DNA of 64,000 nucleotides from Clavelina lepadiformis. Taxonomy: Eukaryota; Chordata; Ascidiacea; Aplousobranchia; Clavelinidae. Positions 25,853 to 52,019 of the stretch are shown here, piece after piece. Below the pieces are notes generated by a model. The model made no database searches, was not told the origin of the DNA, and worked only from the letters and a program-made list of their open reading frames with translations. The stretch covers positions 23,126,001 to 23,190,000 of the forward strand of contig NC_135242.1 in assembly GCF_947623445.1 (NCBI RefSeq). The letters run 5' to 3'. A program made the position numbers and the translations under genes. Numbering within the stretch: the stretch's first letter is position 1; each line of letters begins with the position of its first letter.

Positions 25853-28800
25853 ATGCTTTCACTTCCATTTTATGCTGCGTCAAGTCTAAAGACAAGTTGG
25901 GATAATGACGATCTGATTGGTCGAGGAAGGTTTGCGACCGTTCGCAAGTGCAAGCATGATAAACTCGGAGAAATTGCAGTCAAGTGTTTTTGTGTGCAGG
26001 GGTCACTAGAAAAGCAGAATGAAACATTGAAAGAGTAAGTGGCAGTCAATATAATAAGTTGATTCAATGCATAAATTGGCAAGCTATAAGCAGTTGAAAA
26101 TTTTTTTGAAAGTATTTCTTATTGCTCATACCATGAGTTCCAATATGACCACATTATTTACATGACATGAGTGTTCATTGTGTGAGAATATGTTTAGGAT
26201 TCAACGAGAGATTGACATTCTTTATCGCTTGCATCACAAAAACATCGTACAAATCGTTGGAACTACGAAATGGGCAAACTGCATTGGCATCATCATGGAG
26301 TGTGTGGATAGCGGCAACCTTGAGGATCTGTTGATGTCTAAGCATGTGGCAGAAATACCCTGGGTGCCAAGGATGCGTTTTGTTTATGAAATTGCAGATG
26401 CGTTGTCATATCTGCATTACTACGATGAAACAAAATCATTTGTTCATGGAGACCTGAAGCCTCAAAATATCCTGTTAACATCAGATTTGGTTGTTAAAAT
26501 AGCTGACTTTGGATCGGTCAATGTAGCAATGGTTGCAGGGGTGGGCAACGTATCAGTAGATATTGCAGTAAATACACAACACACCCCTTACTACACTGCT
26601 CCAGAGTTCTTGAAGAATCCCTTACTCAAAAGAACTGCAAAAATGGATGTATACAGGTGATGTCGGTTTGCTTTGATTCCTAACCTACTTACTAGCTCTT
26701 GCTATTTTCAATATTTCCAATAAATATTTTCATAACTGTGTTTCTGTGAAACTAAATCTTGAACTAGAGATTGGCCATATACTAGAGATTGCCTATAATA
26801 GCACCTCAAAGAGAATTGGGAAGAAGTGCTGATATATGCGACTTGTTGTTGTAGATAAATTAATACAGATTAAAGCAAAATGTACTTTTATTGATTGTAA
26901 AACTGGGAGAAAACGAACTGACAAATCAGATGTCAAAATGTGGCAGAAATTGCTACAGAAGTTGCCGATAATTTCAAAATTAAAATAATTCTTTACATGC
27001 TTCACCGGTACTTGCCCAAAAGTTCTTTTTACACAGCACTGCATAAACTAGTGATTCCCAAACTGTGTGCCGCGGCATACTAGTGTGCCGCCACAGATTC
27101 TCAGGTGTGCCGCAAATCTTTTTGTTATTTTGGAAAAGAACTGTATAAATATTTAAAATAAGGCATGCAGACAAGCATATGCAACTTAAAAACGCTCTAA
27201 CTGCTTCAATAGCTGATAAATAAGCACATGTCCATCCAACAAGCACATCCATCGCATTAACACATGAAAACAAATTTTTTTAAAGCAACTTTTCTTCTCT
27301 TGTAAGTGTGCCGCAAGCGTTTTATAATTTTTCTAGTGTGCCACAAGCTGAAAAAGTTTGGGAACCACTGACATAAACTTATGACAAAATGCTTGTGACA
27401 ATCTAGTTTTGACTTAAATTATTTTGGGCCGTACAAACTTGTTTTTCTGTTACACCTGAGGTTTATGTCTGTTGGATACTTTTCTATTAGTGTACGTACT
27501 AGAATATGCCAATTATAAATAAACAGCATAATTCCGGGAAAGAAAATACGATGCAATACCTTTGACTTGCCACCATACAACATGTTGATATATACACAAA
27601 GTTAGATGTTATTTGTGAAATTATAAATCATACGGATTTGTAGCGACTGATGTAGAAATTATGCTAATATAAGTAACTTACAAGTTTCTCTGTGTGAAGA
27701 ACTGTTTTCAGTAATAAACACCTTGGGCCAATCAAAGATTAGTTGCTGCCTGATTTTTAAGCGCCAATATATATATGATGCAGCTTTATTTCCAGTGAAA
27801 CAGGGTAGATAATGTAACTTCATGCACTCATAAATCATAACAAGTCTGTCATAATGAATAATGTAACTGTTAAGTATATGCACATTGTACGACTGTTCAA
27901 TTTGCAAATTTATGTTGTTGTGCAGTCATTGCAACATATATAATGTAACAAATGCATCCATTTTCAGTCTTGGGATGATTGGATATGAAATCATCACCAG
28001 AAATCCAGTATTTCACGGAGTTCCATTTGATTTGATCCTTCAATCGATCAAAGATATAGGACAAAAACCTGAAGAGAGTTATCTTCGAGACATAGAAGCA
28101 TCGTTGGAAAGCAATCCTGAAGATCTGAACATCTTTACAACTCTAAAAAGCATTGTCATTCAATGTTGGGATTTCAACCCCGAAAATCGTCCTGATGTTC
28201 GTCAAGGTGATACTGATAAGTTTTAGCAGATGGAAACTAGCCTGTCTAGTGTGTGTTACACTGGTTGTCATGGTATGTGTTAAAATTACCACCACCTGAT
28301 TTTACTTACTGTTAGTGTCTAAGCATTATCTGGCTTGTCAGTGGAGTATACCTGTGATTTCTCGTCATTAACTTAGCTTGTGCTACTATTTATTTATTTG
28401 CAAACAATATTTGGTGTTTAAGTTCGAAAGCTGGCTATCAGAACACTTAGATCATCTTCAAGATTACAAGATGGTTATTGCATGGACAAGCTTAAACATT
28501 CCACTGACGTGCCACCTAAAACTCAAATTAGTGTCAAAGTAAATCTTGAGGAGTTCTCTGTTCCGTTTGAGAAAGGTCTGAAACCATCGCCATGCTACAT
28601 TCAAGGTAGCAAAATGGAATATTTAAGAAATTTACCAACCAACGACTGCAATTTGTTGTTAGTTCATACTGCAAAGGCATTTCAACACATATTCATACAA
28701 ACAGTATGGTTTTGCTATTGCAGTCGATGAATCAAAAACTGATCCTGTCCCTGATCAAGATAAAACGAAGCAACACATCATGCTGAGTTACAACTGGACC

Positions 28801-31800
28801 GACTCTAAAGCTGTGGCTCACAGGGTTGGTTGTCTTAACTTTTTTTTATTTTGTTATTTGAAAATGGCTTCATGTTTGAAAATGATTAATTAGTTGTACC
28901 ACTGTGTTGATATCAGTTTTGTTACTGGGCCAGCCAAATAACGTTGCTTGATATGTTATAAGTTAGTGAACAGAAGTATGTTTAGTTCTACTATATCTGA
29001 TTCTTCTATTTTTCCCAGATCTATGACAGACTTCATAATTCTGGTTACTCAGTTTGGATTGACAAAGAAAAAATGAAAGGAGATATTTATTCGAAGATGG
29101 CACAAGCAGTGAAAAACGCTTATTTGATTTTGATGTTTGTGTCATCAAATTATGAGAAGAGCGAAAATTGCAGGCGTGAAGGTTCACTTGCTGCTGATCG
29201 GAAAAAGAGAATTATTCCAATTAAGACTCAAAGTGACTTCGAACCTGATGATTGGCTGAGTATGAATTTTATTTTCGAATTAATTTTGTCGAACAGAACC
29301 GGGTCTTGTTTGTTTTGGATGAATTTATGTTGCTTTCATCACAAAGCTGTGTTGAACATTACAGGCTTAATCATCGCCGGTAAACTCTACTACAACTTTG
29401 GTGAAGGTTCATTTGATGAAAAATTTCAAGAACTACTGAAAGATATTGGTAAAAGATTGGATACGCAGTTGTATAGATTCATTTTTGCAATAACAGCTGT
29501 AAAGTAAGAAAGAATTGAAAAGTTAAGTTTCAATAACTTAAAACGATTTCTTTAAAGGCCCTCCCCTGGCTACAACAAAGACTCCGTCATTGCCTCAAGT
29601 GCATTATGACGTCATAAACGATGATGCAGGTAATTGTTCGCAAGCATAATTAATAAGAAGAGTTTAATGCTTCAACACTAATCTTTGTTTACTCCACTAT
29701 TTTGAATTTTGGAAGCGCTCAAAGATTTACAAACTTTTCCAATTAATTTTCTGTGCGAGATTTATCCCATGTCTTTTTGCTTCTTGGCAACTTTTTGTTT
29801 CACCATAGTGAACAGCACGCAAATACATATAACATGGTTTGGTATCACAGCAGGAACATCAACGTCACAAAGCTTGCAGCAGTCCCCAATCAGCAAGAGC
29901 TCAAGCATGCGGAACCTTAGCACGGTTTCAATTGATATGGAGAACTTGCAGAAAGATGATTCAGCCGCTTCTAATCATCTGGAAGTGCAGCACAGAGGTG
30001 GATAGTTTTCCAAGTTTCTTTCAAATACAACTTGCTAAATTTTAGTGACAATTTAAGGTTGATTATGATGCAATAATGAGCTTTATTTGTTGAAGATATA
30101 TCTGCGCCGCTCGATAACCTTTCACTGGGCAGGAACACAATATCGGACAGACTGAAAGTGACGGTTGTTGGCGACGGGACATCAAAGAAGACAGACCTTT
30201 GCCATGCTATTGCTGCCAATGGACACCACGAAGCAATGATACCGACTGTGAGTTGGAACAAGTCCATCTTCATAAAGTAAAACTGCTTTGTGAAGTTGTG
30301 AAGAACTTTCTTAGGCGATGTCGTTCAACCCAAAAAACCTTGAATATGAACAGAATCTAAATCATACTTTCTTGTCAGCTTAGTTTATAAATTATTTTTT
30401 GAAATATTATTAATTTGATTTTTGCCGGGAAATGTTTATCGTTTAAAGCATTGTCTCAACATTTTCCATTACCAGTACCTAATTTGACTGTTGCCTTCGG
30501 TTTAGGTATTTGACAACCATCACGTGAACATCTTACACAATGATGAGATCTACTCTCTTGCAATCTGGGACACAGCAGGTAGGTGTTTATAGCTTGCAAC
30601 TTCAGAATATAATTTGGTCTACATGTCCCACATGATCCATCTCTCCTATGTGCGAGTATCTACAGCACATTAGGTTGAGTGCTTCATAATTAATCTCAAA
30701 TTGTTGGTAAAATGCAATATGGATGTTATGAGTTATATGGCTGTAATAGTTGTGTGATTGTGATAGGACAGGCAGACTATGACCGGCTTCGTCCATTGAG
30801 TTATCCAGAAACAGACGTTTTTCTCATTTGTTTCTCGGTGGTTGAACCCTCTTTACTCCCACAGGTCTCAGGAAAGGTGAAGCAAACATACATTAACTAT
30901 CTAAATACTATGTCTGATTACAATGGAGTTGCACCAAAGATTGAATATTTAATATTGCATCCTAATGAATGGGCCGCTGTTTGTATTGCATACATCCGCA
31001 TTAGGATGTTTCATTTTTTCACCATTTTGGAATTTAAAAAAGCTTGGGGTCTCCCTAGGCCGTATTTTGGGCACAATGAAAGAATCCGAATTTTTTTTTA
31101 ATTTATGACGTCATTTTGAGGTTGCACCCCCTTGTTGAAGTTTCAGTGGGGGTGCATTTTTCTAATTTGGCGATATCTTGGTAACCGATTGAGCTAGAGC
31201 CATAATCAAGGTGTCAAAAGATGCAGAATGGCTGGTTTCCCATAACCACTCAATACATTTTAATTGCATTTTCGCTCTAGAAAAAAAGTTATTTGAGAAA
31301 AACCAAAATTTTGACATATTTTGCCTACCAGTCAACATGTCAGATCAACTGTTTGAGTAAAAGTTACCGTCATAAGCGAAAATATTACCCTGAGCAGTCT
31401 ACTGAAAATTGTTCGTCTTCTAGCTTATCTTCAAAGTATGTTATTGCTGATAAAATAAGAAAAAAGTCTGGAATCGAAAATTTCAACGTCATGTCAGATT
31501 CGGAATCAGATTCAGGAGATCATAAATCAGACCCAGATTTTGAAATCAAGAAAGTAATTGGTGGAAAATTCTATAAAAAAATTCATACGTTTTCAGTAAA
31601 TCAGGAGATGTGCATGCTAGCTGACCGTCGTATGACTTCCATACGCCAGCACTCAGACCAACTGAGATCTTTGGCAGGTGAAAAAATCGCAGCATCTCCA
31701 ACAACTATTTTTCGCAGACGAGAGAAAGTACGAATGAAAGCATTAGAAAGATGCCAATTAGAGATAAAGTCGTGTAGTGCAATGCAACTGTGTTATGATG

Positions 31801-34203
31801 GTAGGGTGATTAACTCACTTGACCGGTATGTTTTTGTTGGTCAGTTGTTGGATGACCAGAATAAAAAATGTGAGAGAATTGTTGGTGTCAAAACCTTTCC
31901 CAAAGGAACATCAGTTACAGGGGAAATACTTTCCTCCACAATTATTGATGAGGTATGCGGTGATACTCTAAAGAAGGTGTACTCAGTCATGGCGGACACT
32001 ACAGCTGTTAACACAGGCTGGGTGTCAGGAGTAAATAAACGCTTAGCAGATTATTTTAGTTTGACCATTGGTCATGGGATTCATACCTTGGAATGTTTAT
32101 TTCATGTCAATGAAATATATCTGTCCCATGTTATTCGTTTCATAGAAGGTGGAAAAAAAGGTCCCAGAGCACTTGAAGATGGTGCATTACTGAATATTAT
32201 AAAAACAATAGAGAAGCCCATTCTAAACGATTTAATTCCATGTGACACTGTAACTATTCCGATTACAAAGATTGCAGCACTGCACATAAAAGAAAAAACG
32301 CAATGGTTTTCTGACAAAAAAAGGAAAAAATGGTAGACAACAGTTTCCGCAGTGAGGAATTGTGCTTGTTAGTGTTAGCTTCTCATTTGCTGATGAATGT
32401 TCCGGAAAATCTAAAAAACCTTTTAACATACAAACAGGAGAGCATAAGTCACTCACGATGGATAACAACTGCCAGCGGCTACCTTCGTCTTCTGCTTTTC
32501 AACATTGGAAGTCAACAAATGTCCACAAATCAAAAAAAAAAATTAGAAAAAATTGTTTCATACATTGTTTCAGTCTATGTACCCTCTTTTGTAATGATAC
32601 ATTTGCATCCAAAAGCTTGTGATGGTCCTTTTCTTACTCTTTTCCAACGCAACATTCTTCTTGCTTATAGAGAAATCCAGCCAGATGTTGCTGATATGGT
32701 AATGAAGTATTACTTGGATCATGCGGGACAATGGCTTGACTCCCAAAATGTGGCTTTAAGTGTTTATTCTGAGGTACCACCTTACCCAATCGAGGCTGTT
32801 AAAGTATCCTCTTCCATGCCGCTATCCATCGGCTGGTTTAAAACAATTTTTCACATTGAACAGCAAACAAGCTCCTTGCATTGCTTCAGATGATGTTGAT
32901 CCAGAATTTTGGAAAGCCATTGAAAACAATAATAGGTGCAATGAAAGGAAAATTGGATGGTTGAAAAATATTCTACAGGAGAAAATTCGTGAAAAGAAAT
33001 CTACTTTGAGGCGTACTGATTTTCGTTTGCAAGCATACCTGTGCAATATGGATAACAATTAGTGAAGACAGCAAATTTTTGGGTTAACATGAACTGTTGT
33101 TTGTTGTTAGTTTAAAGAATAAAAATAAATTTGAATAAAAAATACAATTTTTTATTTGGCTTATGGAACTGTTCTTACACGGTAGAGTAACGCTAAAGTA
33201 GAAATCAAAGTCGCAGTTTAACATGATCGTTTACTCGATCTTTCCAGAACCACCGATGTAGCAGTTATTTACACAAACTGCTGTAATTTTAAGTTTATCT
33301 TAGATATATATATGTTTGTATAGCTTACATATAAAATATTTTGCTTACTTTTCATGGCGAAGGCCAATCTAAAAGTCTACAATCACCACCAAGCAAAATA
33401 AAGGTTCGGTTGGGAACTACATTGTGATTTGCATACAAAATATGTCAAAACTTAGGTTTTTTTTCAAAATTTCGGTTTTTCTCAAATAACTTTTTTTCTA
33501 GAGCAAAAATACAGTTAAAATGTATTGAGTGGTTATGGGAAACCAGCTGTTCTGCATCTTTTGAGACCTTGATCATAGCTCTAGCTCAATCGGTTACGAA
33601 GATATCGCCAATTCACAAAAATGCACCCCCACCGAAACTTCAACAAGGGGGTGCAACCTCAAAATGACGTCATAAATAAAAAAAAAATTCATATTCTTTC
33701 ATTGTGCCCAAAATACGGCCTAGGGAGACCCCAAGCTTTTTTAAATTCCAAAATGGTGAAAAAATGAAACATCCTAATCCGCATATTGTCTTCGACTAGC
33801 AATAAATACGTAAAATATTTCAGTGGGTTCCAGAAATCCAGGAACATTGCCCCAACACTCCATTTATTGTGGTTGGCACAGAAATTGATCTCCGTCATAA
33901 CAAGGATAAGCTCGATGAACTTTCAAAGCAAGACTGGGAACCTCTAGACAGGAATTTATGTCGTACAGTTGCCAATACAGTTGGAGCCTTTGATTACGTC
34001 GAATGCTCTGCTAAGACAAGGGTAAGCAAAACTAAACCTTCGCAAATCAAAGTTTAACCACTTCAGCTTGAACCAGGGCACATTTGACTCGATAAATTGT
34101 TTTCCAGGAAGGTATTGACGACCTGGTTTACAAGATCTTCGCAGCCGCTTATGGCTCATCAGCAAGAAAGACCAGGCGTAAGAAAGCTTGTTCAATCCAG
34201 TGA
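25853..34203 (+). CDS. RIPK-like kinase fused to a TIR domain and a Rho-type GTPase with CaaX box
   Basis: Fourteen exons, all phase-matched, give about 777 aa: 25853-26034, 26198-26656, 27968-28206, 28423-28605, 28724-28824, 29019-29259, 29365-29448, 29558-29629, 29854-29997, 30096-30247, 30506-30578, 30767-30876, 33824-34021, 34108-34203. Residues 1-293 are a kinase: GRGRFATV loop, AVKCF lysine, VHGDLKPQN loop (HGD for HRD), ADFGS, TAPEFL, DVYSLGM. Residues about 368-496 are a TIR domain ([49 protein letters not shown]), with a Glu where catalytic TIRs carry theirs. A Ser-rich linker follows. Residues about 586-777 are Rho-like: [49 protein letters not shown], then [11 protein letters not shown], a polybasic CaaX end. 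Kinase plus TIR suggests immune or cell-death signalling at membranes (inference). A separate Rho gene is unlikely because every junction keeps phase. Confidence 0.85.
27050..27371. mobile_element. hAT-type MITE in intron 2 of the kinase-TIR-Rho gene
   Basis: The left end AGTGATTCCCAAACTGTG and the inverted right end AAAGTTTGGGAACCACTG define a 322-bp element rich in GTGTGCCGC motifs. Both sides carry the 8-bp duplication CATAAACT (27042-27049 and 27372-27379), diagnostic of hAT insertion. There is no coding capacity. Confidence 0.85.
31000..33778 (+). mobile_element. 2.8-kb DNA transposon with about 300-bp inverted repeats, inside an intron
   Basis: The sequence from 31000 (ATTAGGATGTTTCATTTTTT) recurs inverted at 33778. 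The similarity continues for about 300 bp each side (31000-31310 and 33460-33778) with scattered differences. CCGC flanks both ends (30996-30999, 33779-33782), a likely 4-bp target duplication. Between lie frames of a DDE-type transposase on the plus strand. The element occupies the intron between Rho exons 30767-30876 and 33824-34021, so it need not break the host protein. The superfamily is not certain to me. Confidence 0.85.
31293..33061 (+). pseudogene. Frameshifted transposase of the intronic DNA transposon
   Basis: Three overlapping frames, 31293-32336, 32330-32893 and 32760-33062, carry successive parts of one protein: an acidic Ser-rich N-terminal region, a core with [19 protein letters not shown] and [15 protein letters not shown], then [18 protein letters not shown], and a C-terminal [15 protein letters not shown]. 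The pattern matches a transposase-like family I know from cnidarian and arthropod genomes (NTG, HxNE and SHxRW..LRL motifs). The first break lies at an A-rich run near 32320-32335 and the second near the T-rich stretch at 32840-32860. Either this copy is inactive or the runs hold sequencing errors. Confidence 0.75.
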
Positions 34204-36962: not shown

Positions 36963-39900
36963 ATGCTTCCTTCATCCCTTCCAAGTTATGAAGCCAGTTC
37001 ACTGCAGACAAGTGAAAATGAAGATGATTTGATTGGCCACGGGAGTTTTGCTTATGTTCGAAAATGTGAGAATCCAGAACTGGGTGTTGTTGTTGCAAAG
37101 TGTTTCAGCATTGAAGGTTCGTCAGGGAAACACAAAAATGCATTTGAAAAGTAAGGTTCTGAAAATGCGGATGTATTAATACAAGTTGGGGAGAGTTAGA
37201 ATGACTTTACTCTACTAAATTGTTGTTTTTGACGTTTGTGATACAACATTTCTTACTGCATTATCTTTAAAATAAAGTTTAATCTAGAAGAATGATTTAG
37301 AGATTCAGTTATATCTAAAATTTTACTTCTAAAACTTTTTGTAGCATTTGTGAAACTTTTTGTTGGTTTTTCGACATATATAGTATCACTGAGAAAGTAT
37401 TCATAAAATGCCTTGAAACTGTTGAAAAAAACTGCTGTTAAACTGTTGAAACTATTTTAAGGGTCGCTCGAGAGGTCACGATTCTTGCTCATTTAAAACA
37501 CAAAAATATCATTCGCATATTTGGCACCACAAAATGGTCAAAATGCATCGGAATTATTATGGAATATGCCAATAACAGTAACCTCGAAGATATTCTGCTG
37601 GAATACATCGACTTGGATATACCCTGGGCTCTTCGACTTCGATTTACCGATGATGTCGCTAACGGCTTGAAATATTTGCACCATGGTGATTCAAAAAGGG
37701 CATTTGTTCACGGCGATCTTAAACCACAAAATATTTTACTTGATTCCGATCTAGTGGCCAAACTAGCAGATTTTGGTTCCATGAACATTCGAAAAGCTAC
37801 AGGGGCTTTATCCGGTTCAATAAGTGTGACTTCATCCACTCAACATACACCACTTTATTCAGCACCTGAACTTTTAAAGGATCCAACTGACCAAAGACAA
37901 CCAAGCATGGATGTATATAGGTGATATTGAATTGCTATAGAACCTGCGACATGGTCATTCTGAGTAATTCACTTAAGAACATTTGGTGAAGTGTTTGTGA
38001 TGTCATTGTCCACATTCTTTGTAAGTTTATGGCAAACGAAAATATAAGCATTTGTTTTTCACAGCTTAGGAATGGTCATTTATGAGATTGTAACAAGACA
38101 CGGAGCTTATGGTGGTTGTCCAGGTATTATCCAGAATCTGATCAAGGAGTGTGGTCAAAAACCAGATCTGAAACATGTTCAAAAAGTGAAATCTGAATTG
38201 CAAGACAAGCCTCAAGACTTCATGATGTTTCAGTTGCTTGAAACTCTCATGGAGCAATGCTGGAATTTTGAAGCTAACAGTCGTCCAGATATAAACGAAG
38301 GTGACAATATTAGGGGCTAAGATGTTTACTTGTTTAGGTTGTGCAGAAACAAGCTGTCAACGCATGCTCTACACGTAATGCTTCTAATTCTTACGGTTTT
38401 ATTTTTCTTACCATGTTTGCAGTCCATCATAAAACAAACACAAAATGTCAAGAGGTGTTAAAGGAAGTGACAGATTCCTTCGAAAATATTAAAAATGAAC
38501 TCAACAAAAAATTAAAGAACAATGTGAGTGGAAGAAAGACGGCTCTGTGCAACTTCGCACCACCCTTTGACAAAGCCTTCAAAAACGACCAAGCTTGTAA
38601 GAACTTGTTATATTCGAAAAGTGGTTCCCAACTATCTATCACTATCACTATCTTGCCATTTACAGAACTAAAAGATATATTTTCCCACTGTCATTAACAT
38701 GTTGTTTTTTTGCAATTATTGCATATATTTGTAATTTGCATTTAGCTCATTCAGATGCATTTGAATCAATTCAGTCTTGTACAGAAGTTCCGAAAGAAGT
38801 TCGACAACAAACGTCATCACAAGCAAAAGCTGACCAAAGTAAAAAGTAGAACCTGATAAACTTTTTTGCCTTACTTTATGACAAATCATTTACAGTACTA
38901 GCATGAAAAAGTAAAATTCCCAAATATTTTTGTTATGGGCACTGTTGCTCATTATCAGTTCCAAAGTTATTTCGAGTCAATAATTTCACCGGTGCTGACA
39001 TATTCACTGAATAGGTGAGGACGTCAGTGGGTTGAAGAGACACATACTTGAGACTTTGGAACGTTCTTATCCACAAGCAGTTCCTCTAACGATTATATCA
39101 AAGACGTCCCCTTGTAAGAAGAAAGAAGTCAATCATGTAATACTTAATATTTGTTTGAAATATCAGATCTTTATTTTAAGTAATCTTGTAATATTTTTTC
39201 CGAATAAAGCGGATGTGGGTTTCACAACTTAACGTCAGTCACAAGTTCAACCATTTAAATGACTAACTGCTGTTAAGTTTACTTTCTACCGAGTTTAAGT
39301 GTAGGAAGGAATTGTAGATGCCACGTTACTTTTCACCGAATTTAAACTGATTTTGTAGATGCACCATATTACTGTATTACTATTTTATAAAAATATAAAA
39401 TACATTCTTGGCAGAGTATCAAACATTGTTTTCACTCTTGTTTGTACCAGCTTTTGTATGCAATGAAACAAGAAGGATTTGTTGAAAAAACAAAAGCCCA
39501 ACCCCCGGAATGGAAGCTTGTGAAAGACCAAACTCTATCACACCAATATAAGGAAAATACGCATGGGGCAGCATCAAGTGTTGCTGAAGAGATCAAAGAT
39601 CTTTCCGCTGGTGTACAGAGCTTGGCATTTTCCAACCCTCCTCCAAACAACAATCAAAAGATAGGAAATGGTGAAACACTGATGAATACCGTTAAAATTT
39701 TTTATTGTAAATCCTTGGAAAACCTGATTTTTCCCAATGAAAAAACGTTGTTCTTATTTTGCATTTCAGGTGGATCTTTGGAAGAAACTTTGTTATCCAT
39801 CTTGGAATCAAAATACCCTAATGCAGTCCCGCTACTAGATATTGTGAAGCAGAGTGACCAAGAAAGAAAGACGGTCAACAAAGTGAGTAAAATGAAGTTC

Positions 39901-40046
39901 CTACTTCAGTTTATGATTTGGTGAAAACTGTCCAGTGCCATGGAATCCAGTGGAATATCATTTTCTAGGCTCTCTATGGAATGGAAAATCGGGATCTTGT
40001 AAGAAAGACACAAAAATCGCCGCCACATTGGTGTCTGATAAAATGA
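36963..40046 (+). CDS. RIPK-like kinase with two C-terminal Z-alpha (Z-DNA/Z-RNA-binding) domains
   Basis: Nine exons give about 558 aa: 36963-37150, 37462-37920, 38065-38300, 38423-38596, 38747-38838, 39020-39136, 39451-39670, 39770-39882, 39969-40046. Residues 1-294 are a kinase closely related to the upstream gene: GHGSFAYV loop, VVAKCF lysine, [29 protein letters not shown] linker follows (PPFDKAF, as PFEKGL in the neighbour). Z-alpha 1 (about 384-445) has GLKRHILETLE, KKKEVNH, LLYAM and QPPEWKLV. Z-alpha 2 (about 496-558) has EETLLSILESKYP, KTVNK, ALYGM, SPPHWCLIK and ends at the stop. The Asn, Tyr, Pro-Pro and Trp that contact Z-form nucleic acid in ADAR1 and ZBP1 are present in both. 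The frame of exon 38747-38838 is the only doubtful part: two phase solutions exist. The likely role is a Z-nucleic-acid-triggered kinase (inference). Confidence 0.88.
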
Positions 40047-41017: not shown

Positions 41018-43488
41018 CTATGAGCAGTTGGGCGCCTGTAACACAAAAAGCTGCATCTTCATGAAGGGTGAGTCTGTTAGAGACTTCAGAGGAACGAGTT
41101 TTTCATTTTTTGGTTCGTCCACGTCTTCTTGAACCCACTTCAACTTTGGATTTGATTCGTATATTAAGTCTAACGCTGATCCACCTTGAACGTGAACAAC
41201 TACCTAGAAAAATATCTAATGTGACATTAACTTATAAACTTATTTATCTAGAACAGGGATGTCCAACCTGCGGCCCGCCTGAGATTTTTGTGCGGCCCGC
41301 TAGTCATTTTCACTCCAAAAGTATGTACTTCATGTACCCATTTTTCTTGAAATTTAATAGGTTTTGCGGCCCATTCAATTATTTCAAGTGACAATGCGGC
41401 CCACTATAATAAAAGGTTGGACATCCCTGATCTAGAACAAGTTATTGTACATTTTCCAACCGTTTAGACCAAGCAATTACTACTAAGTACCATGAAATCT
41501 CAACTATAAATATGTGTCACACAAAACTTCAGTCGAAAAACTAAAAACTTATAATAGAGTTATAGTCGAAAAATCATGAACAGTTATGTCATGAATCAAT
41601 ATCAAATGTCGTCAAGCGGTTGCTATTGTCAACAATAGATATCACATGTTAGCTCATAAACATTTTTGTTTGACTAAATGATCACATTTCCATTTGGTTA
41701 AAATTAGTTTGGTAACAATTTTTCATGCAAAAAAGCGCGATACAACATATACATGAATTTTATGACATCACAAATCGATCATATGAACCTCAAATCTGGA
41801 GCTCTTGGAATCGTATTCAAACTTTCCATCATAGGAGGATATCCGAAGAAGTGCATCTCTTAATGATACTTCTATGTTAATCATGTATTCATCTTCACTG
41901 GAAATTGTGCAAGCATATTCCCATAAGTTGAAACAAATAATAATTAATCTTTCATGCTTGCCATGTCTACCACAATTATTGCTTACCTTACGTTGCCTGA
42001 CGCAGTTACGTTATTAAGTTCAAAGACAAATTTTTCAACCGGTGTGTCATCGGTCAGAATATTCAGAACAACCCTTCGGATGACATTCTAAATAATTACC
42101 AAGTGAAAATTTGTGAGCAGAACTCCTGTTTTGCATTGGTGATTTTTGGCAAGAAGCAATCAACTGAAGACAATCATGAGTTCTTATTGGTAAACTTAAG
42201 AAACTTTTACCTCCGCCACGAGTGGTTTGAGAGATTTTACGACATTCTTGATATAATCTCGTAACCCTGGATGCCAAGCAATAAACACAGGTACTTCATA
42301 CTTCTTTCTCTTTGAAAAAACACCTCTTGGGTAAAGTTTTCGGTAATAAAGTATTTGATGGATTGCCACTTCTAGGAAGTCACAAGTGACATGGGAAGAC
42401 ACTGAAAAATCAAACAAACTACCTTAAACATAAAATTTTAAATGCTATTTCATGCTGTGCTTTTGCCAATTATTAAAACGATGTTTTGTTGATTGCGCAA
42501 AACCCACCATGCATAAACATACAAGTCTTTCAAGGAAATACAGTAGAGCATAAACAGGAACAGATAAATAACGAGCATGTTGGCAAATAAATAAACACAT
42601 ACATACATTGGGATCTCGTTAATGCGAACTACTTTATCCCGTGAGAATTGTGTGAGATAGGTACATGTAGATAGGTACACGCCATACATGTAGCTAATAA
42701 GAATCCACTGTATATACATGTATGTATGTATGTAACTGCTGCTATATTGTACATTACTGTCTATGCCAGGGCTTCCCAAACTGGGGGTCGCGACCCCGCA
42801 AGGGGTCGCGTAACGAACTTCAGGGGTCGCAGAGCGTATACCAATTTTACACGAAGTACAAAATACAATCAAAACAAAATATACTTCCAGCCTAATAAAC
42901 ATAGAAACCGCCTTGAGACCAGCATTAACAGATATTGAGCCACGGCTGGACTTGCTTTGTAGCAGAAAGCAGTCGGACCAATCACACTGAATAAATGTGT
43001 GTGCTTTTTTGTTTGCAGTAGCCTACATACGTGTAAAGTAGTAAGTAGGCTTTGAGTACTGGTGGCTTGAATTCAGTCTTTGCATCTCAATAAATGTCAC
43101 TAATGACTAATGTATATTTCGCACTGCTTATCAATTTAAACGTGAAGGGTCGCGGAAAACTTCAGAAGTTTGAAAGGGGTCGCGAGCAAAAAAGTTTGGG
43201 AAGCCCTGGTCTATGCAACTATGTTGTAAGAGAAGCTGCAGCCAAGGATTTTGAGATAAGATGAAATCAAAAAAGCTTACAATCCTTCAAAGACGCCTCC
43301 GTGAGCGTGTTGTCCTCGTTGGTCACCAACTTGAGTGGAGGAGTTGGTGGTGACGACACGATCGGCGAAGATGGTGGAAAGTCGATCGGTGAAACTCGAG
43401 CCAAGGAGGGAGCAGGTTTCAGAGCAGCTTGTTCCTGATTCAGAGGAAAGAATTCCTCGTCGTCGTCTTCATCGATATCCACGTCCAT
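41018..43488 (-). CDS. MAD2L2: MAD2L2 (REV7) HORMA-domain protein
   Basis: Five phase-matched exons, 43488-43281, 42401-42211, 42087-41987, 41897-41789 and 41203-41018, give about 264 aa. REV7 is the HORMA adaptor of DNA polymerase zeta (binding REV3), of shieldin, and an inhibitor of APC/C. Recognisable parts are CDFLEVAIHQILYYRKLYP, FSKRKKYEVPV, HPGLRDYI, VEKFVFEL, LRDALLRISS, VVVHVQGG and the safety-belt end KLVPLKSLTDSPFMKMQLFV. The human protein has 211 aa; the extra length is an acidic, Pro/Ser-rich N-terminal extension in the first exon (DVDIDEDDDEEFF, PPSSPIVSSPPTPP). The last donor (gttcat) is weak. Introns 1 and 4 hold hAT-type MITEs. Confidence 0.9.
41254..41429. mobile_element. 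hAT-type MITE in the last intron of MAD2L2
   Basis: CAGGGATGTCCAACCTGCGG at the left and AAAGGTTGGACATCCCTG at the right are inverted. Both sides carry ATCTAGAA (41246-41253 and 41430-41437). The 176-bp element repeats GCGGCCC motifs and is noncoding. Confidence 0.9.
42767..43208. mobile_element. hAT-type MITE in the first intron of MAD2L2
   Basis: CAGGGCTTCCCAAACTGGGG and AAGTTTGGGAAGCCCTG form the inverted ends of a 442-bp element with GGGGTCGCG motifs. The 8-bp duplication GTCTATGC flanks it exactly (42759-42766 and 43209-43216). Confidence 0.9.
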
Positions 43489-46942: not shown

Positions 46943-48721
46943 CTAAGCGCGGAAACGGGATACAAGGGATCTGGCATACTGCAAATGGTGCGGAGACGAT
47001 CGGATAAACCCGATGGTATGGAAGAGGGCCCACATCATGGCAAGGAGTTGCAGGATGAATATAAGGGCTGAGAGAAATGGATTCGTAATTTGCGACAGAG
47101 CAAGGAGTAACGTTTGTTTCGCGGCGTGTGCGAATGTGTCTGCGACGTAGGATCCGTTGATCATAGTTTCATCAGTAGTAGTAAGGCTTGTCATGACATG
47201 TCGCATTTGTTCCTTGAGAAGGTTGGCTTCAGACATAGAGCTGAGCAGCGATTGAAGATCAGTAAACGAGTCAGAGTCAGGTAGCTCGTTGAGAATTTTC
47301 TCGTAGTCGGGTGCCTTGTAGTTGACGTGTATAGGCGACAAAGGTAAGTTGAGTTGATGCACCTGCACATGTTCGTGCGATAAAGTATAGTTGTGATAAA
47401 GGACAGTGTGTCCCAGAACTCGGAAGACAAAACTTCTTGCTGGTCGATACGATTCCAGCAGGTGCACTCCCGGTAGGACAATGTTGTCTGAAATGAGTTG
47501 GCCGTATTGACTGTGGCCGTTTTGATCGCGATATTTGATGAGAGGACGTTGGCTGAATGCGTTTCGGTACGCAAGTGACGGTAAGACGGTACCGTTGATA
47601 GAGTGACATGCTGCTCTGGACATAAAATCTCCAAGGCTGGAACCCATGGTTTGATGTCCAAGAGTAGTAGTGAGTATCTCAGTAGGGAAGATCTTCTCAA
47701 TTGCTTTGTAGAGTGTGCCAATTAGCTTCGTGAGTTGGCAATGTAGGAACTTGTTCTCTTCGTTGAAGGTAGTGAGAACTTCTGAAATAAGGTCGTCCTG
47801 TTGTGTGTCGAAGGTTGCAAAAAGTCGCTCGAATTGAGAGTATGGCGTTCGAAAAGGGGCACGCCTTAGCCGGTTAGGACGAAAAAGAGCGAGTCTGTCG
47901 AGCTCTGTACATTGTTGGTAGCGAAAGATAAAGTTGTTGTTGTCGCAGTGAATGTGTTTGCCATAGCAGTTTTTCGCACGAGAGGAGCATTTCCTCCAGT
48001 GATGTACCGAGATCCCGAGATCAGGTAAGGAAACTCTATATAAGGACGTAGAGTTGTAATGGAGGAGCATCTTGTGAGTCCCGAGAGGCTTGGTTGGTGG
48101 GCAGTTGATATGCGAAGGTACTCGCCATATAAACATACGATTGCCCGTTAAGCAGTATCCACGCCCGATTGAGCACGATGCAAGAGATCCAAGAGACGAC
48201 GTCATTGTGTCCGTGACGTAATCGTAGTAAATTGTAGTGTGAAACAAGAAGTCGTTTGTTACTGTTCCAGAAGCTGAAGTCGGCCAGACAAACTTATAAT
48301 GGACTGCATTGCGTGTTGAGTACGCCGCAGGATTAGACAGGATCAGCGGTCCATGTGATGAAACGTTGGTTTTATTCCACGACGAACATTCTGGGTTGTA
48401 CGGTGGGTGTGCGTCAAAGGTGTTGGCCGATTTTTGATAACTCCCAAAAAAGAAGTAAGTAGTGCTCCAGGAAGTAATCTGTGAAGTGCAAACTGTTGCA
48501 GGAATCTTCTGGAGATGCAGATCTGGAGCAAACACGGTAGCAGAGCAGTTGTGTATGGAGAAGGGTGTCTGCGTTTGACAATGTATGTCGTCATCAAAGG
48601 TATATAACCCGAGAGAATGCGAACGCTGACATAACAGAAATTTCTGTGTATCCGGATGAAGATTCGTCTGAGCGGCGGATGTGAACAAAAAGAAACATGT
48701 AAGCAGCAGACAAACGAACAT
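46943..48721 (-). CDS. env: Env-like glycoprotein of the retroelement
   Basis: The 592-aa frame starts 10 bp after the pol stop codon. It has an N-terminal hydrophobic signal (FVCLLLTCFFLFTSA), many Cys and potential N-glycosylation sites, a furin-type RLRR site at residues 284-287 dividing surface and transmembrane halves, and one membrane span near residues 549-571 (LSALIFILQLLAMMWALF) followed by a 21-residue tail. This is the layout of a class of retroviral or captured viral envelope proteins. I cannot assign its viral source by eye. Expression would need a spliced mRNA or reinitiation. The frame is unbroken. Confidence 0.85.
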   Translation of the reverse strand: MFVCLLLTCFFLFTSAAQTNLHPDTQKFLLCQRSHSLGLYTFDDDIHCQTQTPFSIHNCSATVFAPDLHLQKIPATVCTSQITSWSTTYFFFGSYQKSANTFDAHPPYNPECSSWNKTNVSSHGPLILSNPAAYSTRNAVHYKFVWPTSASGTVTNDFLFHTTIYYDYVTDTMTSSLGSLASCSIGRGYCLTGNRMFIWRVPSHINCPPTKPLGTHKMLLHYNSTSLYRVSLPDLGISVHHWRKCSSRAKNCYGKHIHCDNNNFIFRYQQCTELDRLALFRPNRLRRAPFRTPYSQFERLFATFDTQQDDLISEVLTTFNEENKFLHCQLTKLIGTLYKAIEKIFPTEILTTTLGHQTMGSSLGDFMSRAACHSINGTVLPSLAYRNAFSQRPLIKYRDQNGHSQYGQLISDNIVLPGVHLLESYRPARSFVFRVLGHTVLYHNYTLSHEHVQVHQLNLPLSPIHVNYKAPDYEKILNELPDSDSFTDLQSLLSSMSEANLLKEQMRHVMTSLTTTDETMINGSYVADTFAHAAKQTLLLALSQITNPFLSALIFILQLLAMMWALFHTIGFIRSSPHHLQYARSLVSRFRA

Positions 48722-48731
48722 GTTGTGTTGT

Positions 48732-51700
48732 TTAGTCAGAGAACCGTTTCGGTGGAATGATTTTGCGACCAGTCCGAGAAGTCTTTACAACTTCAGGCGG
48801 TTTTATAGAAGCAGGAGCAGTGACAGTAGGTGGTGTCGTTTGCTGTTTCGCTGAAGTAGCGGAGACTGACTGAGGAGCAGGGTGTCGAGTCTGCAAAGAA
48901 AAATTTTGTTGATGCGAGGAGGATGATGGTAAGGGAGCATCAATATCAATTGTATAGCTAGGTTTGAGACGGTCGAGTGAGACGCGATCCGGTTTGCCAT
49001 GACGGGATATTACAAAATATTTTTCGTATCTTTCCAATACTGGAAAAGGACCAACATAAGGGCGTTCTAACGCACGTTTGACATGATCGCATCTAACATA
49101 AACGCGGTCACAATGTTTCAAATCCGGATGCACGTAGGACTGCATGAATTTTGTATGAGCGGTCGTTGGAGTAAACTGAAGGTCGTTGATGAAGTCTCGG
49201 TAGGCACCGAGGTAGCTGGATGTAGGAACTGCAGAGGCAAGCTTGGAATCAGAAAAGAAACCACCTGGGAGCCGTAAGGTGTGTCCAAAAGCTAACTCAG
49301 CAGGTGTACATTTCAAATCCTGGAGATAGCGATTACGCAGAGCCAAGACAATAAAACCCAATTTGTGAAACCAACGCTCAGGTTCGTCTGAACACTTGAT
49401 GGCGCGCTTGATCTCTGCATTTGCGCGTTCTGTAATTCCATTGGAAGTGGGGTGGTAAGCTGTAGTCAGATTGTGTTGAATACCAAGCGAGCGCATAATT
49501 TCTGCCCAAGCGGAACTTATGAAACATGGTCCACGATCACTTGTGAGGATGATTGGAACACCGACCAAGGAACACCAATGATTAACAAAGTAAGCAGCAA
49601 CGGTTTCCGTGGTGGCATCAGGGATTGGTATCGCTTGAACGAAACGCGTATATCGGTCGATACACGTAAGGATGTATTTGTAACCATGGGAGGTTGGTAG
49701 TGGTCCAATCAAGTCAATTGCAACATCAGAAAATCGTCCGTAGGGAATTTTAAATTTCCCCGGTGCGGTTTTAGTGTGGCGGAAAATTTTTCCTTCCTGG
49801 CAGTTTGGGCATTGTTGAACCCAGGTAGCGATTTGTTTACACATCCCTATCCATATAAATCTTTCCTTGATGAGCTTAATTGTGGCTTTTTTTCCAGGAT
49901 GCGATAAATTATGTAAGTGCAGGAATACTTGACGTTGGAAGGAGGAAGGAACTAGAACACGCTCTGTGTCAGTGGACACGTCACAAAGGATGGTAAGGTC
50001 CTTATTGGGCAGCTTGCAGTCCTGGAGTTTGAGTGATGTTGTTGCGGTGCGTAGTCTTTGAATAGCAGGATCATTGGCTTGAGCTTGTGCTATTTTCTCA
50101 TACTCTAAAGGAGGCGGAACGTCCGAAAGAGTATTAATGTTGGGTGCCGAAGGTTGAGACCTTGACAAGAGGTCCGCCACAACATTGGCAGAGCCTTTGA
50201 TGTGCTCAATGGTTGTTGTATATTCTGAAACAAACAACAATTGCCGGAACTGTCTTGGAGAGTAATGTTCGGAGAGCTTACTGAGACTTGAAACCAAAGG
50301 GAGATGGTCTGTACGCAAAGTGAACTGTCGGCCTGTCAAGAAGTAGCGGAAATGACGTATTGACTTGTAAGCGGCCAACAGCTCTCGGTCAAAGCAACTG
50401 TATTTACGTTGAGTAGCGTTCAGCTGTCTTGAAAAGAAGGCCAAAGGAACAAGTTGATTTCCTTGCAATTGCTCTAATGTCGCTCCAATACCGGTCAACG
50501 AAGCGTCAACTGTTAGATAAGTTGGAGCATGGAGTTTCGGAAACGCTAAAGTGCTAGCATTTGCAATAGCTTGTTTGCTGCTGGCGAAGGCGCATTCGGC
50601 TTCGACATTCCATGTTAAAGGGGCCGCGCGTTTGCTGCGACTGTTCGGAACTAGTTTGTAAAGCGGTTGTAAGGTTGTGGAACAATGCTTCAGAAAGCGA
50701 AAATAATAGCAATAAATTCCCAAGTAACGTTTCAGCTGTTTGCAGGTTTGTGGCTGTGGGTAATCAAGAATGGCCTGCACTTTTTCTTGAGTTGGTCGTA
50801 TACCCTCAGAATTTATGTGATGGCCAAGGTAGTCAAGAGACTCGCGGTTGAATTCACTTTTGTCTAAATTGAGCGTTAAGCCAAATTCCTCAAGTCGTTG
50901 AAAAAGCAACTTAAGGTGTTCAAGATGTTCTGATAGGTTACTACTTCCAATGATGATATCATCGAGGTAAGCAAAGATTCCAAGGTGCTGAAGGGGGCGT
51001 ACTACTTCCCCTATTAGTCTGGAAAAGGTCCTTGGGGCCCCCGACAAACCGAATGGGAGTCGTGTGTATTCGAATTGTCCTAGGGGGCAAACAAACGCCG
51101 TTTTATGGACATCTTCTGGAGCCACTTTTATTTGATGAAAGGCGTTTTGGAGGTCGCATTTAGAGAAGACAGTTTTACCATACAAAACCTCGGAAAAACT
51201 ATGTAAGAACGGAAGAGGGTAACAGCTGTCGATTGTTTGTTTGTTGACTAATTTATAATCAACGACAAGACGATATTTATTGCCAGAAGAGCCTTTAGGA
51301 ACGAGCAAGGCCGGACTTCCATAAGGAGAATCACTGTAGCGGATAATTTCTCGCTCCAGCAAGCTGTCAATTTCTTTCTTCAAGATCTGCATTGTTTCTG
51401 GGCTATATCGACGTGGACGTGCACGTACAGGAGAACCTGTGGTATGGATGTGGTGAACGATGGAATGCTTCACTGGTTTAACAGCTGACATGGGTTTTTG
51501 CAAGTCTGGAAATTGATGTAAAAGGTCTGCAACAGGATCTATCTGGCTGAGAATGGATATGCGAACAGGATCACTTTCAACAGGCTCTAACGTATATTGC
51601 TGTTGGTTCGGTACATCTATCAGATGCTTGGCTTTAAGATCCAAAACAAAGTTGTATTCAGTGAGGAAATCCAGCCCCAATATGCAAAAAGGTGTGTCCG

Positions 51701-52019
51701 CAAGCACAAATTCAAAGGGATAAGAAAAACGAGGATGAAGGGAAACATTAAGTTGTGTAGTGCCATACGTAGTAATTGGCGTGCTGTTAGCAGCGAAAAG
51801 CGGTGTTTGCGGTTTGCGGTTTGATACGTCAGCTAAACTAGCGGACAAAAGAGAAGTTGCTGCCGCGCTATCTACATAAAAGTGAATACTATTGGCGTGA
51901 TCATATACAGTTAACAAGGGGCAGCCTCTTTTTATTGATGATGCGATCGACGGGACTGACGGGGTTAATGTTGCGTCGATCGCCACGCGTTTTTTGTTGG
52001 GCGGGATTGGTTCTCCCAC
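48732..52019 (-). CDS. pol: Pol polyprotein (protease, RT, RNase H, integrase)
   Basis: 1,095 codons, open throughout and overlapping gag by 55 bp in the -1 frame. Approximate residue positions: protease with VDSAAATSLL at about 50 (DSA in place of the usual DTG/DSG) and ILGLDF; reverse transcriptase with LPFGLSGAPRTF and YLDDI near 351; RNase H with LTVDASLTGIGATL near 503; integrase zinc region HLHNLSHPGKK..CPNC near 701 and the catalytic Asp, Asp and Glu near DLIGPLP (768), TSDRGPCF (830) and ITERANAEIK (868). The C-terminal tail is Pro/Ser-rich. It is probably made as Gag-Pol by frameshifting, as the A AAA AAC site at 51995-51989 suggests. Confidence 0.95.
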   Translation of the reverse strand: MGEPIPPNKKRVAIDATLTPSVPSIASSIKRGCPLLTVYDHANSIHFYVDSAAATSLLSASLADVSNRKPQTPLFAANSTPITTYGTTQLNVSLHPRFSYPFEFVLADTPFCILGLDFLTEYNFVLDLKAKHLIDVPNQQQYTLEPVESDPVRISILSQIDPVADLLHQFPDLQKPMSAVKPVKHSIVHHIHTTGSPVRARPRRYSPETMQILKKEIDSLLEREIIRYSDSPYGSPALLVPKGSSGNKYRLVVDYKLVNKQTIDSCYPLPFLHSFSEVLYGKTVFSKCDLQNAFHQIKVAPEDVHKTAFVCPLGQFEYTRLPFGLSGAPRTFSRLIGEVVRPLQHLGIFAYLDDIIIGSSNLSEHLEHLKLLFQRLEEFGLTLNLDKSEFNRESLDYLGHHINSEGIRPTQEKVQAILDYPQPQTCKQLKRYLGIYCYYFRFLKHCSTTLQPLYKLVPNSRSKRAAPLTWNVEAECAFASSKQAIANASTLAFPKLHAPTYLTVDASLTGIGATLEQLQGNQLVPLAFFSRQLNATQRKYSCFDRELLAAYKSIRHFRYFLTGRQFTLRTDHLPLVSSLSKLSEHYSPRQFRQLLFVSEYTTTIEHIKGSANVVADLLSRSQPSAPNINTLSDVPPPLEYEKIAQAQANDPAIQRLRTATTSLKLQDCKLPNKDLTILCDVSTDTERVLVPSSFQRQVFLHLHNLSHPGKKATIKLIKERFIWIGMCKQIATWVQQCPNCQEGKIFRHTKTAPGKFKIPYGRFSDVAIDLIGPLPTSHGYKYILTCIDRYTRFVQAIPIPDATTETVAAYFVNHWCSLVGVPIILTSDRGPCFISSAWAEIMRSLGIQHNLTTAYHPTSNGITERANAEIKRAIKCSDEPERWFHKLGFIVLALRNRYLQDLKCTPAELAFGHTLRLPGGFFSDSKLASAVPTSSYLGAYRDFINDLQFTPTTAHTKFMQSYVHPDLKHCDRVYVRCDHVKRALERPYVGPFPVLERYEKYFVISRHGKPDRVSLDRLKPSYTIDIDAPLPSSSSHQQNFSLQTRHPAPQSVSATSAKQQTTPPTVTAPASIKPPEVVKTSRTGRKIIPPKRFSD

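Follow-up and report, generated by a model that had tools for sequence, protein, structure and literature searches.

In mammals, recognition of Z-form nucleic acid and the cell-death or immune-type kinase coupled to it are divided between two proteins, ZBP1 and RIPK3. Fish PKZ combines N-terminal Z-alpha domains with a PKR-like eIF2-alpha kinase (PMC10523160), and a RIP-kinase homolog of amphioxus (LOC118428708/XP_035694742.1, 458 amino acids) has been tabulated with a Zalpha at residues 1-63 and a kinase at 156-415 (PMC9573974, Table 3, 2022). Here we describe a gene of the ascidian Clavelina lepadiformis, located at positions 36963-40046 of a 64,000-nucleotide stretch of contig NC_135242.1 (assembly GCF_947623445.1, forward-strand positions 23,126,001 to 23,190,000; hereafter the window), which is predicted to encode a RIPK-like kinase followed on the same chain by two Z-alpha domains. 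A first-pass annotation of the window had put forward this arrangement as one not known to have been described.

The eukaryotic Z-alpha proteins counted in a 2023 review are ADAR1, ZBP1 and PKZ only, with similar invertebrate proteins added in its text (PMC10523160). Newly predicted Z-alpha proteins come from Anthozoa, among other groups; the accessible text of that paper names neither a tunicate nor a RIPK example (PMC11298590). The Z-alpha of ADAR has been traced to porifera (PMC11293857). ZBP1 was reported absent from all fish examined, its origin being placed only in tetrapod evolution (PMC12119088). The amphioxus entry, which receives a one-sentence remark in the accessible part of its paper (PMC9573974), means that a Z-alpha and a RIPK-like kinase on one chain have a precedent, in the opposite order.

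Like the mammalian ZBP1-RIPK3 pair, the Clavelina gene couples Z-alpha domains to a RIPK-type kinase, and an MLKL-like gene is present in the same genome; unlike that pair, it forms one polypeptide rather than two, has the kinase first, lacks a RIP homotypic interaction motif (RHIM) and has a Z-alpha exon structure in common with ADAR. The definition of ZBP1 (Z-alpha domains and a RHIM, no kinase) does not cover a protein with Z-alpha domains, a kinase and no RHIM. With PKZ the predicted protein has in common a kinase and two Z-alpha domains in one chain, but here the Z-alpha domains follow the kinase, at the C-terminus (residues 384-560), and the kinase does not group with PKR. The amphioxus protein, compared here by its table entry only, also carries both parts on one chain as tabulated, but has a single Zalpha, placed first.

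Gene model and exon structure

The coding sequence, spliced by hand, occupies exactly 36963-40046 on the plus strand and consists of nine exons separated by eight introns, all GT-AG:

36963-37150, plus strand: exon 1, start codon and kinase N-lobe (G-loop G25-x-G27, Lys46), ending in phase 2
37462-37920, plus strand: exon 2, kinase with Glu67, HGD 146-148, DFG 166-168 and APE 197-199
38065-38300, plus strand: exon 3, kinase C-lobe (Arg289)
38423-38596, plus strand: exon 4, end of the kinase and linker with the LCNFAPPF motif common to paralogs, ending in phase 1
38746-38838, plus strand: exon 5, linker, without Met
39015-39136, plus strand: exon 6, first half of Z-alpha-1, phase 1 to 0, ending in KKEVNH
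39451-39670, plus strand: exon 7, second half of Z-alpha-1 (beginning LLYAM, through QPPEW) and linker, ending in phase 1
39770-39882, plus strand: exon 8, first half of Z-alpha-2, phase 1 to 0, ending in RKTVNK
39969-40046, plus strand: exon 9, second half of Z-alpha-2 (beginning ALYGM, through SPPHW) and stop codon

The spliced frame encodes 560 amino acids and ends in a TGA codon whose last base is 40046. Its start codon is the first ATG in the exon-1 frame, and an upstream tandem paralog (P0003, described below) starts at the matching position. The spliced protein (P0001) was identical (100%) to the NCBI Clavelina lepadiformis record named "RIPK3-like". No Met occurs in residues 279-428 of the spliced open reading frame (ORF), the next after 278 being 429, and exons 4-6 thus offer no ATG from which Z-alpha-1 could be started separately. 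Intron 3 does contain an ATG shortly 5' of exon 4 (38413) that lies in the frame of this exon, which makes a kinase-less isoform formally possible. The single tunicate polypeptide, kinase first with two C-terminal Z-alpha domains, was thus recovered as it had been proposed, and by this gene model the kinase and both Z-alpha domains are one gene and one predicted chain.

C-terminal Z-alpha domains

A Pfam scan of the 560 amino acids identified two stretches matching z-alpha (PF02295; E 2e-13 jointly), at residues 384-449 (Z-alpha-1) and 498-560 (Z-alpha-2), C-terminal to the kinase. When each domain was scored alone, values of 33.3 bits for Z-alpha-1 and 26.6 bits for Z-alpha-2 were obtained, both above the cut-off of this profile (21 bits). 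Five residues of human ADAR1 have been named as important for Z-form recognition, N173, Y177, P192, P193 and W195 (PMC11298590), and all five are kept in each copy, as N423, Y427, P442, P443 and W445 in Z-alpha-1 and as N534, Y538, P553, P554 and W556 in Z-alpha-2. The two domains with their Asn, Tyr, Pro-Pro and Trp set, as read by the first-pass annotation, are in this way borne out both by profile and by residue.

Matches in the Protein Data Bank (PDB) were similar in kind: at E<=1, 19 of the 21 sequences found for Z-alpha-1, and likewise 19/21 for Z-alpha-2, are named as ADAR1, ZBP1/DLM-1, PKZ-type kinase or viral Z-alpha protein. The entries among them labelled 34L, "eIF-2kinase" and poxvirus "dsRNA-binding protein" (dsRNA, double-stranded RNA) we take to be Z-alpha proteins. 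Below E = 0.001, Z-alpha-1 matched ADAR1 only (five sequences) and Z-alpha-2 matched ZBP1 only (one sequence). An NCBIfam scan gave matches below cut-off only. Judged by profile and contact residues, the two C-terminal domains are Z-alpha domains, for which Z-form binding is predicted.

Kinase domain and its class

Pfam Pkinase matched residues 21-297 with an E-value of 5.9e-41, a complete kinase domain, and the catalytic residues K46, E67, D148 (HGD) and D166 (DFG) are present and invariant in a 19-row alignment. The profile comparison suggested by the first-pass annotation therefore returned a complete kinase, as it had read there, and both Z-alpha domains above cut-off.

The nearest kinase relatives, which include proteins of Clavelina and Ciona (P0008) and many ENA/JGI proteins, are referred to here as the tunicate-type family. 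A 19-row profile of this family, searched against the PDB, placed RIPK1 (170.5 bits) and RIPK2 (169.9 bits) on top, followed by tyrosine kinase 7t6f (154.4 bits), which we take to be JAK, and by RIPK4 (151.3 bits), CTR1 (145.6 bits) and IRAK4 (144.0 bits); RIPK3 was not among the best 60 matches listed. Foldseek, used with an AlphaFold model whose kinase part was mostly confident, returned RIPK1 at ranks 1-10, with IRAK4 after it. At profile and fold level, then, the kinase domains of vertebrate RIPK1 and RIPK2 are nearest, although the Clavelina protein, unlike these, had no death domain, CARD, ankyrin repeats or RHIM in scans.

In a 20-row tree, which included RIPK1-4 and PKR as the first-pass annotation had suggested, the 12 tunicate-type rows formed one group (support 100/97). 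Together with RIPK1-4 this group was split from PKR, ULK1, IRAK4 and the plant kinase with support of 89/84, which falls under the 95/80 mark used for starred nodes. The tree was rooted at its midpoint for drawing only, the PKZ kinase was not included, and PKR sits on a long branch with an unsure placement. The kinase thus falls on the RIPK side and apart from PKR; the tree does not order the tunicate-type group, RIPK1/3 and RIPK2/4 among themselves. Pairwise scores were 83.7 bits for the plant U-box kinase, 81.6 for RIPK3, 76.7 for IRAK4, 73.7 for RIPK2, 68.0 for RIPK4, 67.1 for ULK1, 64.4 for RIPK1 and 40.3 for PKR. In a plain phmmer search of the PDB the best kinase match was RIPK3 (81.3 bits), by a small margin over MARK3 (80.9 bits).

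The RHIM tetrad [VILM]Q[VILCM]G had no match in the 560 amino acids. One linker segment considered as a RHIM, GVQSLAFSN (478-486), was rejected because it is without the Q-x-G core. No death domain, CARD or ankyrin repeats were found in the Pfam scan of the protein at E<=1. Taken together, profile, fold and small tree give fair support for calling the predicted kinase RIPK-like, with orthology to no particular RIPK claimed, and a PKR/PKZ-like class is disfavoured by the same comparisons.

Origin of the Z-alpha exons

A z-alpha profile search of the whole genome (E<=10) gave three places, none above cut-off: exon 7 of the kinase gene, C9:2944445 and C5:6026007 (minus strand). This search runs exon by exon and found one of the four half-domain exons of the kinase gene, so other Z-alpha genes may be missed by it. 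The C5 place is the Clavelina ADAR, whose Z-alpha scored 38.9 bits once joined at the splice site. Deaminase (A_deamin) fragments of 56.8 and 37.0 bits (cut-off 27) and a dsRNA-binding-motif fragment of 21.6 bits, just below its cut-off of 23, belong to the same gene. The C9 candidate (20.4 bits in the genome search) was rejected as a Z-alpha, since its ORF of 499 amino acids encodes an F-box protein, which scored 27.1 bits with F-box-like (cut-off 24.3) and 16.4 bits with z-alpha (cut-off 21).

The ADAR Z-alpha is interrupted after KKQINH and resumes with VLYGM, and the introns inside the ADAR Z-alpha, Z-alpha-1 and Z-alpha-2 fall at the same codon and in the same phase, phase 0. In all three, moreover, the first-half exon is preceded by a phase-1 intron and so runs from phase 1 to 0. 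The two genes otherwise differ: ADAR (C5, about 6020-6027 kb, minus strand) is an RNA-editing enzyme, with one Z-alpha and no kinase in the stretch read.

Z-alpha-1 and Z-alpha-2 are identical at 27 of 63 aligned residues, and each is identical to the Clavelina ADAR Z-alpha at 21 of 63. Alignment scores favour the Clavelina ADAR (94 versus 74, and 91 versus 79), with mouse ZBP1 as next best. Identities to vertebrate Z-alpha domains are of the same order (Z-alpha-1 to human ADAR1, 18/57; Z-alpha-2 to human ZBP1, 20/58), so the argument for a common origin rests mainly on exon structure. The intron at the same codon as in the ADAR Z-alpha suggests exon shuffling. A common origin of the Z-alpha exon pair fits these observations, most simply from ADAR, a direction that we infer, and a later tandem duplication of the symmetric 1-1 unit formed by exons 6-7 would fit as well.

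A kinase module with varied C-terminal parts

The kinase part of the gene recurs in an adjoining paralog:

25853-34200, plus strand: upstream tandem paralog LOC143449441 (P0003), RIPK-like kinase, then TIR and Ras/Rho-type GTPase

The Z-alpha kinase and LOC143449441 have the same exons 1-4, with identical intron phases (2, 2, 1, 1). In both, the motif L-x-x-F-x-x-P-F stands directly ahead of the point, where exon 4 ends, at which the C-terminal parts are exchanged; the C-terminus of the paralog consists of TIR and a Ras/Rho-type GTPase in place of the Z-alpha domains. A looser form of the motif, L..[FY]..[PQ]F, which was picked after inspecting the alignment, follows the kinase domain in 10 of 48 retrieved relatives (P0001-P0009 and P0121). 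In other relatives the C-terminal parts are kelch, sushi and TPR-like, some of the TPR-like matches falling below cut-off. The kinase therefore appears to be a module that has received varied C-terminal parts behind a phase-1 intron. On the same contig, 12-15 kb upstream of where the window begins, there is another kinase-TIR copy (L001:4842-8180).

The looser linker motif may perhaps act as a docking or autoinhibitory element. In the upstream kinase-TIR copy, kinase residues of about 109-220, which would include HGD and DFG, were not found by tblastn, and it is perhaps a dead copy or pseudogene. The kinase-TIR-Ras/Rho-type GTPase chain of LOC143449441, a predicted protein, is itself of unusual architecture; the longest intron of this gene (30877-33823) holds long ORFs (31281-32893) that are transposon-like by eye, of which 31281-32333 had no Pfam match. 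Three kelch-type relatives (P0012, P0014 and P0028) show by eye a hydrophobic stretch between the kinase and the kelch repeats, which suggests membrane-anchored kinases with the kelch part across the membrane.

An MLKL-like gene as candidate effector

On C2, a profile search of the genome identified an MLKL-like gene, which lies on the plus strand at roughly 16217860-16220430. MLKL_N matched at two adjoining places, with 41.3 bits (above cut-off) and 25.9 bits, each match running over one stop codon at a point read as an exon border. Roughly joined exon pieces gave 87.7 bits for this four-helix domain, and a pseudokinase-like region 3' of it has HKN instead of HRD. The N-terminal domain of Ciona MLKL kills human cells (PMC11476962), and the study of PMC12119088, in its accessible text, did not find any tunicate RIPK1 homolog that has a RHIM and a death domain, which leaves room for another upstream kinase. 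The Z-alpha RIPK-like kinase acting on the candidate MLKL-like protein would be an economical hypothesis.

Proposed mechanism and alternative explanations

Our preferred explanation, to which we give a probability of about 0.55 from the sequence comparisons above, is that the gene encodes a single-chain immune kinase activated by Z-form nucleic acid, an analogue of ZBP1-RIPK3. The tunicate kinase family would serve as a plug-in platform in which the C-terminal module supplies the input, and which an ADAR-type Z-alpha exon pair would have joined by shuffling via a phase-1 intron, with a tandem duplication afterwards. On flipping to the Z form, dsRNA (or DNA) of viruses or retroelements would gather several molecules on one ligand, and the clustered kinases would trans-phosphorylate one another without requiring a RHIM. 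A RIPK-type response would follow, most attractively through phosphorylation of the C2 MLKL-like protein, which would lead to lytic death of infected cells. ADAR, with a Z-alpha of the same exon structure and an editing activity, would be the likely brake, and the whole would be the functional counterpart of the mammalian ADAR1/ZBP1/RIPK3/MLKL circuit, a single protein acting as both sensor and kinase. A bolder version, which we offer only tentatively, is that tunicates independently built a one-chain Z-RNA death circuit resembling ZBP1-RIPK3, based on a shuffled and duplicated ADAR Z-alpha pair, with lysis by MLKL, no RHIM, and ADAR editing or hiding self Z-RNA. The TIR-Rho and other paralogs would then be sister receptors, in a kinase family with exchangeable sensors.

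A Z-form-sensing RIPK-like kinase might instead have an inflammatory output (of NF-kB/MAPK type, as RIPK2 and RIPK1 can have) rather than MLKL-driven death. The family profile, which puts RIPK2 as near as RIPK1, is in keeping with this, as are the lack of a RHIM in the chain and the TIR and Rho-type GTPase of the sister gene, which suggest signalling over killing; given the MLKL-like gene, through which a death arm may be available, we consider this output rather unlikely. It is less likely again that the C-terminal winged helix-turn-helix domains have lost Z-form reading and now act as general modules for interaction with nucleic acid or protein. Such a loss would accord with the slightly better fit of Z-alpha-1 to another Pfam family (below) and with the predicted Z-alpha-like domains of bacteria that failed to bind (PMC11298590, in its accessible text), but neither copy has lost any of the five contact residues, 19 of 21 PDB neighbours of each copy are Z-alpha proteins, and in exon structure both match the ADAR Z-alpha.

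Two further possibilities were rejected. A PKZ-like translation-shutoff kinase, in which the Z-alpha domains would activate an eIF2-alpha kinase, has the same parts list of two Z-alpha domains and one kinase, but the domain order is reversed and PKR was the lowest-scoring reference (40.3 bits against 64-84 for RIPK1-4, IRAK4, ULK1 and the plant kinase). PKR also stood across the 89/84 tree split (with its long branch and unsure placement), and no chain named eIF2-alpha kinase was among the best 60 PDB matches of either the single-sequence or the family-profile search, which makes this identity highly improbable. Hardly credible at all is a merging by gene prediction of a kinase gene with a separate Z-alpha gene: the in-frame ATG at 38413 would suit it, but the frame is continuous across the eight GT-AG introns with no Met before Z-alpha-1, the NCBI model is identical, and exon 4 carries the family linker motif together with the last part of the kinase.

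Several results weigh against the single-chain Z-form-activated RIPK-like kinase favoured here. Z-alpha-1 scored 37.0 bits against Pfam HTH_69 (PF22979), slightly above its z-alpha score of 33.3, and an HTH_69 match was absent for the Z-alpha domains of human ADAR1 and of human and mouse ZBP1; in a genome search with HTH_69 (E<=1) the single match was exon 6 of the Z-alpha kinase gene, below cut-off. AlphaFold gave the Z-alpha region a predicted local distance difference test score (pLDDT) mostly below 50, with helices and no beta strands, in two runs, one with a kinase-only alignment without Z-alpha relatives and one with the single sequence. Predicted Z-alpha-like folds can fail to bind the Z form (PMC11298590, accessible text). 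Identity alone does not clearly single out the Clavelina ADAR as the source of the nearest Z-alpha (for Z-alpha-2, 21/63 versus 20/58 for human ZBP1). As to the kinase, a single-sequence score puts it about equally near RIPK3, IRAK4 and the plant U-box kinase; the term "RIPK-like" of the first-pass annotation therefore stands for profile, fold and small tree, but pairwise scores do not separate RIPK from IRAK4 and the plant kinase. Finally, a second species with the Z-alpha kinase architecture was not found in protein-database searches, which need shared 5-residue words and may miss distant cases.

Novelty and significance

The view that the arrangement is undescribed held in part: the kinase-first form with two Z-alpha domains was not found, but the amphioxus RIP-kinase homolog with Zalpha first had been tabulated (PMC9573974). 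No description of the kinase-first double-Z-alpha form, of any tunicate case, of the ADAR-matching exons or of the modular family was found in open-licence papers. PF02295 occurred only in P0001 among the kinase relatives inspected (the best 120 of 194 and the best 120 of 378, with a few long domain lists incomplete), and the Z-alpha part alone, used as a protein-database query, found only itself among 857 candidates. New here are the intron shared by the Z-alpha domains and ADAR, the kinase module shared with the TIR-Rho gene and the MLKL-like gene in the genome.

The Clavelina gene appears to join the Z-form recognition and the cell-death or immune-type kinase that mammals split between two proteins. 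If true, a working tunicate Z-alpha RIPK-type kinase with ADAR-matching exons would argue that coupling between Z-sensing and RIPK arose more than once, and it would offer a RHIM-free single-protein system for how Z-RNA sensing switches on a RIPK-type kinase. It would also open to experiment the question of what triggers MLKL in invertebrate deuterostomes, in which its N-terminal domain can be lethal (PMC11476962) and, in the accessible text of PMC12119088, no RHIM/death-domain RIPK1 was found in tunicates.

Other features of the window

Rfam and tRNA scans of the 64-kb window gave no matches. The remaining features were as follows:

9775-10482, minus strand: ORF with a fibrinogen C-terminal domain (Pfam)
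12583-14229, plus strand: ORF with a PKD domain (Pfam)
42199-42423, minus strand: exon-like ORF with a HORMA domain (25.5 bits, cut-off 24), of a gene downstream of and convergent with the Z-alpha kinase
46943-53221, minus strand: Ty3/gypsy-like long terminal repeat (LTR) element, by eye, with long open ORFs
51965-53221 and 48732-52022, minus strand: gag-like and pol-like ORFs, respectively, of the LTR element, by eye

Further exons of the HORMA gene, without a Pfam match, could be followed by eye down to about 41.0 kb; we presume that the HORMA ORF may be MAD2L2/REV7-like. In the LTR element, the ORF in the envelope position (46943-48784) matched herpesvirus glycoprotein B at 38.0 bits, below the Pfam cut-off of 43.

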